Source: Aminivibrio sp. (GTDB lineage: Bacteria; Synergistota; Synergistia; Synergistales; Aminobacteriaceae). Taken from it: 39,707 bases of DNA. The translations under genes were made by a program, and so were the position numbers. Position 1 is the stretch's first letter, and each line of letters opens with the position of its first letter. Positions 6,390-32,390 of the stretch are shown in pieces. The stretch spans positions 1-39,707 of the forward strand of contig NZ_JAESIH010000050.1 of assembly GCF_016756745.1 (NCBI RefSeq), given 5' to 3'. Below the pieces are notes generated by a model that worked only from the letters and a program-made list of their open reading frames with translations, was not told the origin of the DNA and searched no databases.

Positions 6390-6558
6390 CCTAAATCCGC
6401 AGGCTTTTCAGGCAGAGGGGGTGTCGCCGGGCATACGGAATTCCCCCTCCCCAGGGGCGAAGAGATCCCGCTCCGCGCTCTTTGCGGAGATATCCCCTCA
6501 GGCACCCTCCCGCCCAAGGGTGCGCCGGTGACGCTCCCCGCTGGGGTGCGGATTTAGG
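6390..6558 (+). repeat. Dispersed MITE-like element, copy A (169 bp)
   Basis: Bounded by CCTAAATCCGC (6390-6400) and GCGGATTTAGG (6548-6558), perfect 11-bp terminal inverted repeats. Inside are the family's left module (AGGGGGTGTCGCCGGGCATA) and right module (CGCCGGTGACGCTCCCCGCT), which are themselves inverted complements. The interior is different and shorter than in copies B and C, and has no gene. No flanking 5-bp duplication is visible. Just upstream (6362-6380) AATCCGC occurs twice more, perhaps a decayed second end. The element ends 10 bp before the -35 of the CDF transporter gene. Confidence 0.85.
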
Positions 6559-6568
6559 GCGGAAATTC

Positions 6569-6596
6569 TTGACTTGGCCGGCGAAAGGCTCATAAT
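6569..6596 (+). promoter_or_regulatory. Promoter of the CDF transporter gene
   Basis: TTGACT (6569-6574) and CATAAT (6591-6596) are 16 bp apart, directly downstream of repeat copy A and 46 bp before the ATG. Confidence 0.6.
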
Positions 6597-6642: not shown

Positions 6643-7545
6643 ATGGAGAGAAATGACGAAGCAAGACGAATAACCTTTCTGGGGCTCGTGATCAATCTTT
6701 TTCTTACAGCAGGGAAGTACTTTGCGGGCTATTTCGGCAGGAGTTCTGCCATGATCGCCGATGCTACCCATTCCCTGTCCGACCTGCTGACCGATCTCAT
6801 AGTGTACTTCGGGCTCTCGGCGGCGGGGAAGCCTGCCGATTCCCACCACCCTTACGGTCACGGCAAGATCGAAGCCGTCCTTTCGGCCGTGTGCGGGATC
6901 TCTCTGCTTCTTGCGGCGGGAGGAATCTTCTTCTCCGGAGCTGCGCGGATTTGGTCTTTCCTGGTGAGGGGCGCGGAAATGCCCGGTCCCGGAATGATCG
7001 CCCTTGCAGCCGCTGCAGTTTCCGTTCTGCTGAAGGAATGGCTCTTCCGGTACACCATCGAGGGAGGGAGGAGGCTTCAGAGCAGCGCGTTGATTGCCAA
7101 GGCATGGGACCATAGGTCCGACGCCCTCTCCTCTGTGGGTACGCTGGTTGGAATTGCCGGGGCCTTTTTCGGAGGTGAACGGTGGCGTGTTCTCGACCCC
7201 TTGGCCGCCCTGGTGGTGAGCGTCTTCATCGTGACCGCGGCACTGCCCATCCTGAGGGACAGCCTTGACGAGCTCATCGAGGCTGCTCTCCCGGGGGAGC
7301 TTGAAAAGGAGCTCCAGTCCGCAATCGTTTCCGTGCCGGAGGTTCGTTCTTTCCACAAGCTGAAGACCCGAAGGATAGGAAGCTCCATTGCCGTGGACGT
7401 GCATATTCAGATGAACGGGGCCCTGTCTCTCAGCGAAGCCCATGAAATATCCCGGAGGGTTGAACATGAGATCTGGGAGATTTTCGGCCATGACGCCCAT
7501 ATTTCCCTCCACATGGAACCCGCCTCGCAGGCGGCGGGCCGGTAA
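6643..7545 (+). CDS. Cation diffusion facilitator (CDF) family metal transporter
   Basis: A 300-residue membrane protein with the CDF layout: about six N-terminal membrane segments and a cytoplasmic C-terminal domain (about 205-300). The metal site residues are visible in the second segment (ADATHSLSDLLTD, about residues 37-49) and the fifth (AKAWDHRSDALSS, HxxxD). HPYGHGK follows segment 2, as is usual. Family members exchange cytosolic Zn2+, Fe2+, Mn2+ or similar ions for protons. The metal specificity is not assigned. AAGGAGA at 6630 precedes the ATG. It has its own promoter and appears monocistronic. Confidence 0.92.
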   Translation: MERNDEARRITFLGLVINLFLTAGKYFAGYFGRSSAMIADATHSLSDLLTDLIVYFGLSAAGKPADSHHPYGHGKIEAVLSAVCGISLLLAAGGIFFSGAARIWSFLVRGAEMPGPGMIALAAAAVSVLLKEWLFRYTIEGGRRLQSSALIAKAWDHRSDALSSVGTLVGIAGAFFGGERWRVLDPLAALVVSVFIVTAALPILRDSLDELIEAALPGELEKELQSAIVSVPEVRSFHKLKTRRIGSSIAVDVHIQMNGALSLSEAHEISRRVEHEIWEIFGHDAHISLHMEPASQAAGR

Positions 7546-14420: not shown

Positions 14421-14643
14421 CCTAAACCCGCAGTTTTTCCAGGCGGAGAAAGTGGCGCCGGGCATAAGGTGAATTCGCCCTCCCCGGGGGCGAGAAACCG
14501 GCATGGATGTCGATTTCGCAGGCAGACAACCGGCGAACGCAGAGAGCCGCGGGACTCGCCCGGGCAGTTGTCACGAACGACAATCAGCACCCCCCCGCCC
14601 AAGCGTTCCCCGGTGACGCTCCCCGCTGAGGTGCGGATTTAGG
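14421..14643 (+). repeat. Dispersed MITE-like element, copy B (223 bp)
   Basis: Ends are CCTAAACCCGC (14421-14431) and GCGGATTTAGG (14633-14643), with one mismatch in the left end. Left module GGCGCCGGGCATAAGGTGAA and right module GTTCCCCGGTGACGCTCCCC match copies A and C. The interior shares with copy C a GAAACCG..ATGTCG hairpin, the segment CAACCGGCGAACGCAG and the GCAGTTGTC/GACAATC hairpin, but lacks C's GGGGCGAAGAGATTATCCCC part. No coding capacity and no clear 5-bp target duplication. It ends 15 bp before the -35 of the hydrogenase operon promoter. Confidence 0.87.
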
Positions 14644-14653
14644 GATATTAACT

Positions 14654-14685
14654 TTCATTTACAATGAATCGAACCGTAGTATAAT
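14654..14685 (+). promoter_or_regulatory. Promoter and candidate operator of the mbh operon
   Basis: TTTACA (14658-14663), 16-bp spacer and a perfect TATAAT (14680-14685). Overlapping the -35 is a perfect inverted repeat TTCATT-TAC-AATGAA (14654-14668), a candidate regulator site. A further TTCATT occurs in the leader at about 14733. The predicted leader is about 70 nt. Confidence 0.75.
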
Positions 14686-14763
14686 GTATCCGATGTTTTT
14701 TTCGCTCTCCGGGTCTCCGGAAATTTATCATAGTTCATTATCTTAAGACTGGAGGTGGAGCAT

Positions 14764-15249
14764 GTGTTCATTTTCATTGCCTCGTTTCTGATGTATCTTC
14801 TCCTCGTGTGGTCCGGAGGGGGCATTCCGCTGGTTGAAGTGCTCATCGGGCTTCTCGTGGCGGGAGTTGTCACCTATGCCTACACCACATGGCATCCGGG
14901 GAGGAAACTCAGCAGACGGGGACTCGAGCCCAAACGCTGGCTCGACTTTGTGACCTATCTTTTCGGGCCCTTTGCCCTCGGCATGGCGAAGGCGAACATC
15001 GATGTAGCGATACGGGTCATCACCGGAAACATTCGGCCCGGCATCGTCAGGGTGAACCCCGGATTGAACAGCGATGTCGCCAAGACGGTGCTGGCGAATT
15101 CCATCACGCTTACGCCGGGGACGCTCACCGTGGATGTGGACGATGCGGGGGAATTTTACATCCACTGGATCTACGTGGAGGACGAAAATCCTTCGGAGGA
15201 GCAGTTGTACGGAAAATTCGCCCTCTGGGCAAGGAGGTTGGCTGAATGA
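14764..15249 (+). CDS. mbhA: Mbh hydrogenase antiporter module, MrpE-like subunit MbhA
   Basis: A 161-residue protein with two N-terminal membrane segments (FIFIASFLMYLLLVWSG; LVEVLIGLLVAGVVTYAYTTW) and a soluble C-terminal part with NPGLNSDVAKTVLANSITLTPGTLTVDVDD, the MrpE/MnhE signature. It belongs to the Mrp Na+/H+ antiporter half of Mbh. GTG 14764 is chosen because GGAGGTGG (14751-14758) lies in front of it, and the in-frame GTG at 14755 overlaps that ribosome binding site. It is the first gene of a 14-gene operon and overlaps the next gene by 4 bp. Confidence 0.9.
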   Translation: MFIFIASFLMYLLLVWSGGGIPLVEVLIGLLVAGVVTYAYTTWHPGRKLSRRGLEPKRWLDFVTYLFGPFALGMAKANIDVAIRVITGNIRPGIVRVNPGLNSDVAKTVLANSITLTPGTLTVDVDDAGEFYIHWIYVEDENPSEEQLYGKFALWARRLAE

Positions 15250-23091: not shown

Positions 23092-23106
23092 GCCGTCTGC
23101 AGGAAC
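23071..23106 (+). other. Hairpin spanning the mbhN stop codon
   Basis: GTTCCTGCAGACGG (23071-23084) pairs perfectly with CCGTCTGCAGGAAC (23093-23106). The 8-nt loop contains the TAA stop at 23089-23091. It precedes the operon terminator by only 4 nt, giving a double hairpin end that may protect the mRNA. Confidence 0.7.
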
Positions 23107-23110
23107 GGAA

Positions 23111-23161
23111 GGGAAAAAGGGAACGGACCGGGGGAAATTCCCGGTCCGTTCCCTTTTTCCC
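23111..23161. terminator. Strong bidirectional terminator after the mbh operon
   Basis: A perfect 22-bp inverted repeat, 23111-23132 with 23140-23161, 7-nt loop. The base of each arm includes GGGAAAAAGGG/CCCTTTTTCCC, so the T-tract is inside the stem. It sits between convergent mbhN and gltX and can serve both. Confidence 0.85.
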
Positions 23162-23176
23162 TTCCGGTGAGTTTTT

Positions 23177-28377: not shown

Positions 28378-28472
28378 GGTGGGTTGGCCGAGTAGGCTGA
28401 AGGCACTCGCCTGCTAAGCGAGTAGGGGGGCTTAAACCTCCCTCGAGGGTTCGAATCCCTCACCCACCGCCA
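28378..28472 (+). tRNA. tRNA-Ser (GCT)
   Basis: A 95-nt type II tRNA: acceptor GGTGGGT with ACCCACC, anticodon stem CTCGC/GCGAG around CTGCTAA with anticodon GCT at 28413-28415, a long variable arm (TAGGGGGGCTTAAACCTCCCT), T-arm GGTTCGAATCC and encoded GCCA end. It reads AGC/AGU. Confidence 0.97.
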
Positions 28473-28486
28473 TCAACAACCGACAG

Positions 28487-28563
28487 GCGCCGGTAGCTCA
28501 GATGGATAGAGCGGCGGTCTACGGAACCGCAGGTCACGAGTTCGAATCTTGTCCGGCGCGCCA
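28487..28563 (+). tRNA. tRNA-Arg (ACG)
   Basis: A 77-nt cloverleaf: acceptor GCGCCGG with CCGGCGC, anticodon stem GCGGT/ACCGC around CTACGGA with anticodon ACG at 28521-28523, T-arm AGTTCGAATCT and encoded GCCA. Its A34 is the substrate of TadA, encoded at 35911 in this window. It is 14 bp after tRNA-Ser. Confidence 0.97.
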
Positions 28564-28967: not shown

Positions 28968-29000
28968 AAGAGGCCTTTTATAGTGGACCTCTTCCTTTAC

Positions 29001-29255
29001 CCTAAATCCGCGCCCCAGCGGGGAGTGTCACCGGGGAACGCTTGGGCGGGGGGTGCAGATTGTCGTCCTTGACAACTGCCCAAGCGATCAACACGGCTCC
29101 CTGCGTTCGCCGGTTGCCTGCTTGTGAAACCGACATCCGTGTCGGTTTCTCGGCCCGGGCGCTGTCCCCCAGGGGATAATCTCTTCGCCCCTGGGGGGCG
29201 AATTCACCTTATGCCCGGCGACACTCCCTCTGCCTGAAAAACCTGCGGATTTAGG
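29001..29255 (-). repeat. Dispersed MITE-like element, copy C (255 bp), inserted in a gene
   Basis: Ends CCTAAATCCGC (29001-29011) and GCGGATTTAGG (29245-29255) are perfect 11-bp inverted repeats. It is the longest copy and lies in the opposite orientation to A and B. It is flanked by TTTAC on both sides (28996-29000 and 29256-29260), a 5-bp target duplication. Deleting 29001-29260 joins CCT TTA C to CA GAG in frame, rebuilding the DUF2335 sequence GPLPLPEIL. The interior holds three potential hairpins: GAAACCGACAT/ATGTCGGTTTC-type, GATTGTC/GACAAC-type and CCCCCAGGGG... It encodes no convincing protein, so a transposase would have to act in trans. Confidence 0.93.
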
Positions 29256-29600
29256 TTTACCAGAGATACTTGCAAAGTCTGATGAAATTGTTCCAGGAGC
29301 CGCAAGATCGAATTATTGTAATGGCTGAGAACCAGAGTGCTCACAGGATCACAATAGAAAAACAAGTTGTTTCCTCGCGGGCAAGGGATAGTACTGCTGG
29401 TATTATTTGCGCTCTAATTGTGTCTGTGGTAACAATTACCGTGGGTGGTTTGGTTATATTACATGGGTACCCGTTCTCCGGTACTTTTTTAAGTTCATCG
29501 GGCCTGGCAAGTTTGGTCGGAGCGTTTATTTTCGGAACCCGTTCAAACCGGGAAGAAGGAGAAAAGAAAATGCAAGGGAAATAACCTATTCCTTAAAAGG

Positions 29601-32242: not shown

Positions 32243-32257
32243 TTCCAGTATGCAACG

Positions 32258-32284
32258 GCCCGGCCTTGAGCCGGGCTTTTTTTT
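32258..32284 (+). terminator. Terminator abutting repeat copy D
   Basis: GCCCGGC (32258-32264) pairs with GCCGGGC (32270-32276), loop CTTGA, then eight T (32277-32284). The next base starts repeat copy D. Confidence 0.88.
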
Positions 32285-32390
32285 CCTAAATCCGCCGGCA
32301 GCGTCACCGATGCCGGCTTGGGCCGGGGGGGCGAATTTACCTTATGTTCGGAGCGACACTCCCTCTGACTGAAAAGTTTGCTGATTTAGG
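32285..32390 (-). repeat. Dispersed MITE-like element, copy D (106 bp, internally deleted)
   Basis: Ends are CCTAAATCCGC (32285-32295) and GCTGATTTAGG (32380-32390), one mismatch. It has the same orientation as copy C. It keeps the right module (AGCGTCACCGATGCCGGCTTGGGC) and left module (CGAATTTACCTTATGTTCGGAGCGACACTCCCTCTG), joined without the 100-150 bp interior of B and C. It follows immediately on a terminator T-run. No target duplication is visible. Confidence 0.87.

Follow-up and report, generated by a model that had tools for sequence, protein, structure and literature searches.

About half of the well-defined copies of a MITE family in Aminivibrio sp. lie exactly 14 nt upstream of a predicted −35 box

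Four related repeats stand in under 27 kb of the window analyzed here (a 39,707-nucleotide stretch of an Aminivibrio sp. genome), and their shared ends and variable, hairpin-containing interiors raise the question of whether they are simple mobile elements, structured RNAs or regulatory sequences, and how they came to their present positions. A first-pass annotation, made from the sequence alone, had placed them at 6390-6558, 14421-14643, 29001-29255 and 32285-32390. These coordinates hold, and each copy is bounded by the shared terminal repeats CCTAAATCCGC / GCGGATTTAGG, an 11-mer that is found with zero or one mismatch at 6390, 6548, 14421, 14633, 29001, 29245, 32285 and 32380. The four repeats are members of one gene-less MITE family and pair with one another as long direct or inverted repeats (arms of 112, 81, 70 and 54 nt, with 83-94% complementarity). 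Copies 3 and 4 are inverted with respect to copies 1 and 2; the left and right modules described for them are recognizable, but approximate rather than exact in the other copies, copy 4 having diverged the most. The copies and their immediate surroundings in the window are as follows.

6390..6558, − strand (reversed relative to copy 3): MITE copy 1, 169 bp, internally deleted, with an extra hairpin module; TIRs exact; no matching duplication
6569..6596, + strand: predicted promoter TTGACT-16-CATAAT, 10 nt from the end of copy 1; 10 of 12 positions match (0.1 expected from shuffles)
6643-7545: cation-efflux gene (Pfam Cation_efflux), downstream of the copy 1 promoter
14421..14643, − strand: MITE copy 2, 223 bp, internally deleted; TIRs with 1 and 0 mismatches; no matching duplication
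14658..14685, + strand: predicted promoter TTTACA-16-TATAAT, its −35 starting exactly 14 nt past the end of copy 2; 11 of 12 positions match
14755-15249: Mnh-type Na+/H+ antiporter subunit gene (Pfam MNHE), downstream of the copy 2 promoter
28996..29000: target duplication TTTAC, left of copy 3
29001..29255, + strand: MITE copy 3, the intact form of 255 bp; TIRs exact
29256..29260: target duplication TTTAC, right of copy 3
29270..29275, + strand: TTGCAA at exactly +14 from the end of copy 3, a weak −35-like hexamer without a good −10
32257-32277: terminator-like hairpin directly ahead of copy 4
32285..32390, + strand: MITE copy 4, 106 bp, degenerate; TIRs with 0 and 1 mismatches; no matching duplication

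Two tandem tRNA genes are located at window positions 28378-28560, shortly upstream of copy 3. At 23106-23166, two perfectly complementary 27-nt arms enclose a loop of 7 nt, a structure that may be an intergenic terminator.

A high-copy family of gene-less elements

Genome-wide searches extended the family beyond the window, in line with the high copy number that the first-pass annotation had suspected. We counted 282 occurrences of the terminal 11-mer GCGGATTTAGG across the 100 contigs of this 2.94-Mb genome as compared with 14 of the reversed control, which corresponds to upwards of about 130 elements, and copy 3 used as a BLAST query matched 50 pieces genome-wide, with full-length copies elsewhere in the genome being 98-83% identical to it. 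Alignment of 30 genomic matches with the window copies gave CCTAAATCCGC(AGG) as the terminal repeat and revealed 5-bp target duplications, exact in most full-length copies, together with hairpins and the inverted subterminal repeats that had already been noticed in the window. By DNA identity, two other genomes of the genus carry similar copies (44 and 35 match pieces), with hardly any found elsewhere.

Element classes were derived from 50 elements whose duplications agree in 4 or 5 of 5 bases. Their lengths cluster at 254-259 bp, which takes in the intact form (255-259 bp), and at 164-166 bp, an abundant deletion form, with minor length groups of 208-215, 264-282 and 50-57 bp; one sequence family takes in 46 of the 50, the 164-166-bp forms being internal deletions. 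Elements of 50-282 bp are far too short for a transposase gene, and in their shortness, copy number, TIRs (CCTAAATCCGC) and target duplication of constant length (5 bp) they have the build of MITEs. An extra hairpin module (ATATCTCCGCAAAG.GCGCGGA) is present in copy 1 (6390-6558) and in the copy of a relative (L068:1501-1779) and absent from most copies, a patchy distribution which suggests that the interior of the MITE can acquire or shed small modules.

The suggestion that the repeats encode or form a structured or cis-regulatory RNA would find support in their folding, since either single strand of the MITE folds far more strongly than shuffled sequences (z about −8 for each) and gives a very stable structure. 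A GC-rich element with so many inverted repeats would, however, be expected to fold in this way. None of 76 consensus pairs (23 copies from three genomes) displayed compensatory double changes and the covariation term was about zero (−0.29), which leaves the interiors in the state that the first-pass annotation itself had linked to simple MITEs rather than to an RNA function. Moreover, Rfam matches within the window were tRNAs only, internally deleted forms are abundant, and promoters are faced equally often by either element end. We therefore regard a structured RNA as most improbable, and the simple MITE reading is borne out by the 5-bp duplications, the deletion derivatives and an IS with matching ends.

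Insertion spacing and pre-existing promoters

A feature of the family that the first-pass annotation had missed is its insertion-site preference. In a genome-wide pattern search, TTGAC was found at up to 30 nt outward of a TIR in 61 places, at exactly 14 nt in 44 of them, at 15 nt in two and at 13 or 16 nt in none, and the opposite orientation (GTCAA) was encountered three times in the same outward search. To avoid selecting on the result, 138 exact TIR ends were fetched regardless of their flank. Among these unselected ends, TTGACA with up to one mismatch occurs 27 times at +14 versus about 0.45 times per offset elsewhere, and with up to two mismatches 44 times versus about 4.3; TATAAT-like boxes are most frequent at +36 to +38, corresponding to 16-18 nt after the −35. 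Duplication-verified elements, likewise chosen regardless of their flanks, carry a −35 at +14 on at least one side in 22 of 41 cases (0-4 at the other offsets tested); 21 of these 22 have it on one side only, and either end of the MITE is turned toward the promoter (10 to 10). In the other 19 of the 41, no recognizable −35 (up to two mismatches) was found at +14. Insertion exactly 14 nt upstream of a predicted −35 is, on this count, a property of about half of the verified, well-defined copies. Within the window, the clear pattern is displayed by copy 2 only, and a consensus promoter scan gave no promoter beside copy 3 and no match beside copy 4.

The offset of 14 was first noticed in the genome that supplies the main counts, and other genera provide an independent replication. 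In 188 Synergistota genomes searched with either TIR variant, 44 TTGAC matches outside the genus fall at spacings 7 to 23, 23 of them (in 12 genomes) at exactly 14, and the two out-of-genus examples that were fetched are complete MITEs with 5-bp duplications. These distributions bear on the alternative that insertion is near-random and that purifying selection spares harmless intergenic copies, for example those just upstream of promoters. Many copies are indeed intergenic, and insertion above a core promoter is expected to be mild; yet under such selection many distances should be tolerated, whereas the family lands at 14 nt with virtually no neighbours at 13, 15 or 16, and the one-base peak is also found in other genera with two TIR variants. 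We consider this alternative very unlikely.

Outward promoters are common in MITEs (PMC10969869), and the elements might, in the manner of Correia elements, supply the promoters themselves, the pattern then reflecting promoter creation and not targeting. Here, however, both the −35 and the −10 lie outside the TIR, beyond the target duplication, and the boxes differ from site to site. Furthermore, the boxes stand at uninterrupted orthologous sites in relatives. We compared the joined flanks of eight insertion sites with relatives in the genus (gene names are our reading of translated starts), and the uninterrupted site was identified at four loci, namely thioesterase-like C33, sugar kinase-like C59, proS-like C81 and DctP-like C22, at each of which one or two close relatives possess a single target copy with the same −35 and −10 boxes. 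The guaA, C41:62779 and tpx sites, where relatives misalign through the junction, and C13:22753, where the match was confined to the upstream side, were left out of the count of empty sites. Promoter supply by the elements is, on this evidence, scarcely credible. The boxes found, being outside the element and occurring at empty sites as well, do not form a promoter within it, although an additional weak one may exist there. The regulatory effects that had been suggested for the repeats stand insofar as many elements keep a constant distance upstream of predicted promoters that were already in place; the elements themselves are outside the downstream transcript but adjoin its control region.

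The same assembly contains, at G000:C94:3388-3827, a sequence that matches the joined C33:42963 flanks at 88% without interruption, which points either to duplication of the locus or to a contig that stems from a related strain.

At the tpx-like site, the TTGAC that is accompanied by a 164-bp MITE in the window's genome is preceded at 14 nt by an IS end in a relative (G001), for which two independent insertions at one promoter are the simplest explanation. Elements adjoin back to back in nine places, in seven of which exactly 5 nt separate the terminal repeats, a gap that follows if the later element reuses the same 5-bp target.

G000:C41:104149-104175, C35:32322-32348, C22:42629-42651 and C76:5774-5796: back-to-back elements exactly 5 nt apart
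G001:C13:87142 and C16:77844, and G009:C1:2207237: back-to-back elements exactly 5 nt apart in other genomes

The −10 box provides hints toward what is recognized at these sites. A −10 (up to two mismatches) was found for 28 of 42 targeted TTGAC versus 23 of 83 other non-coding TTGAC (Fisher p = 4e-5), and ends with a poor −35 still show a −10 excess at +36 to +38 (12 of 94; mean of 2.5 and maximum of 10 in other offset ranges). This extra −10 signal slightly favors promoter-bound RNA polymerase, rather than the −35 DNA itself, as the guide. In a mechanistic variant, the transposase would read the −35-like TTGAC directly, without RNA polymerase, and the association with promoters would arise secondarily, TTGACA being a hallmark of promoters and insertions within genes being eliminated. 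Both −10 observations speak against this variant, while the distance being fixed to the −35 as the −10 spacing varies over 16-18 speaks for it; a few TTGAC sites at +14 that look gene-internal and have no −10 likewise suit direct DNA reading, or looser targeting. We regard direct reading as a serious possibility, if short of the favored one.

The candidate partner IS and its relatives

A Pfam PF13701 search of the genome identified an autonomous element whose ends, and ends alone, are shared with the MITEs.

G000:C76:3871-5782 (L061:223-2134): IS1380-family element of 1912 bp with TIRs CCTAAATCCAC/GCGGATTTGGG, duplication CGGTC on both sides and a transposase gene

The predicted transposase scored 67.8 bits against PF13701 (cut-off 34.7) and 174 bits (E = 4e-51) against NF033539 (IS1380), just under the cut-off of 180. 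The CGGTC duplication agrees with the 4-5-bp target duplications of the IS1380 family, and terminal repeats of this family start with CC, as here. Structural comparison of the predicted transposase model (mean pLDDT 82) gave Tn5 transposase as the best match (E = 3e-7), and a PDB sequence search with the transposase profile returned nothing credible (best E 0.09). The DDE columns (D156, the second D and E429) are conserved in relatives; the second catalytic Asp is present in 24 of 24 aligned relatives and is replaced by A in the C76 copy, whose TIRs also deviate from the family. Judged from its sequence, this copy, the only fully assembled one, is probably old and dead. Contigs C6, C7, C10, C11, C22, C35, C41 and C45 break inside further IS ends with the canonical TIR, as expected when a repeated IS collapses in assembly, and it is at these contig edges that the active IS copies are collapsed. 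A 64-65%-identical transposase is carried by G021:C207, from a genome of the same taxonomic family as the window's.

Shared TIR ends, duplication length and targeting link the MITEs to this IS, which is likely the source of their transposase, and we infer that it is the transposase that makes the choice of site. In the window's genome, TTGACA lies at +14 for three of three IS right ends and for none of five left ends. IS ends in G002 and G007, each adjoining a partial or decayed transposase relative, agree with the right-end pattern.

In distant IS1380 relatives (about 31-42% identical), pairing of ends by inverted repeat and duplication alone gave mostly noise, except at locus L169, and the ends were therefore anchored on the GGATTTNGG end. 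For 12 right ends chosen by TIR pattern, two of them at related sites, from SAR324, Chloroflexota, Desulfobacterota, Armatimonadota and others, the promoter match at +11 to +15 beats all 2000 shuffles (mismatch sum of 49 versus a shuffle mean of 78, sd 4), which is suggestive of a promoter spacing of 11-15 nt in these relatives.

We consider it highly probable that an IS1380-type transposase moves the MITEs in trans with a 5-bp staggered cut, about half of the verified insertions taking place 14 bp upstream of an existing −35. The transposase of an IS with the same 11-14-bp ends would mobilize the gene-less MITEs, and integration with a 5-bp staggered cut would generate the 5-bp target duplication. 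The targeted position, 14 bp upstream of the −35 in a sigma70-type promoter that is already in place and thus near −50 relative to the transcription start, would leave both the −35 and the −10 box intact; such insertions would do little harm, a likely benefit to the family in reaching more than 100 copies. A further proposal, which we hold as possible and no more than tentative, is that polymerase docking arose independently in a whole branch of IS1380 (in Synergistota, Chloroflexota, Desulfobacterota, Armatimonadota and others), whose transposase would contact RNA polymerase bound at a promoter, or sigma region 4, with the right end promoter-ward and insertion at about −50. If true, polymerase-guided bacterial transposons would include a Tn5-like lineage in addition to the Mutator-like one.

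Known systems and significance

TnGBS, ISLre2 and ISKra4-group elements (Mutator-like p-MULT 3 and 4) insert 15-17 bp upstream of sigmaA promoters, the right end adjoining the promoter for most elements with unequal ends and either end doing so if the two are nearly identical, and contact with the polymerase initiation complex has been proposed (Guerillot et al. 2014, PMC3942029). The family described here resembles them in its fixed short distance upstream of the −35 (14 bp here, 15-17 bp there), and in the promoter-ward right end of its IS, with MITEs using either end. It differs in its transposase, which belongs to IS1380 (NF033539/PF13701) with a predicted fold nearest to Tn5, whereas theirs belongs to the Mutator superfamily, in its 5-bp duplication, and in that most copies are gene-less MITEs; fixed-distance insertion is thus shared with p-MULT and a Mutator-like transposase is not.

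With the IS1380 family (IS1380, ISEcp1, ISPme1), the system shares its transposase family and its 5-bp duplications, which are documented for IS1247 and others (PMC3281130); ISEcp1 and ISPme1 are known for promoters that point outward and for taking adjacent DNA with them (PMC9330008). In the open-access literature we found no report of fixed-distance promoter targeting by IS1380 elements, and the published promoter-targeting bacterial cases found there all use Mutator-like transposases. Correia elements and promoter-carrying MITEs (PMC10969869) are similarly small, gene-less, bounded by TIRs, high in copy number and close to genes, but Correia elements bring promoters with them, whereas the MITEs here sit at a fixed distance from pre-existing ones. 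The MITE family is of ordinary build, while its precise promoter targeting is uncommon and, in the open-access literature searched, unreported for IS1380.

Fixed-distance choice of promoters is known for few transposons. Single-base targeting by an IS1380-type system suggests that promoter recruitment arose more than once, and the many natural insertion sites would provide material for working out whether −35 DNA or bound polymerase is recognized. In practice, the ends of such elements may mark promoters in uncultured bacteria. For the host, each insertion would part a promoter from any activator site above about −50, and the targeting offers a possible account of how a mobile element reaches more than 100 copies in a 3-Mb genome with little damage.
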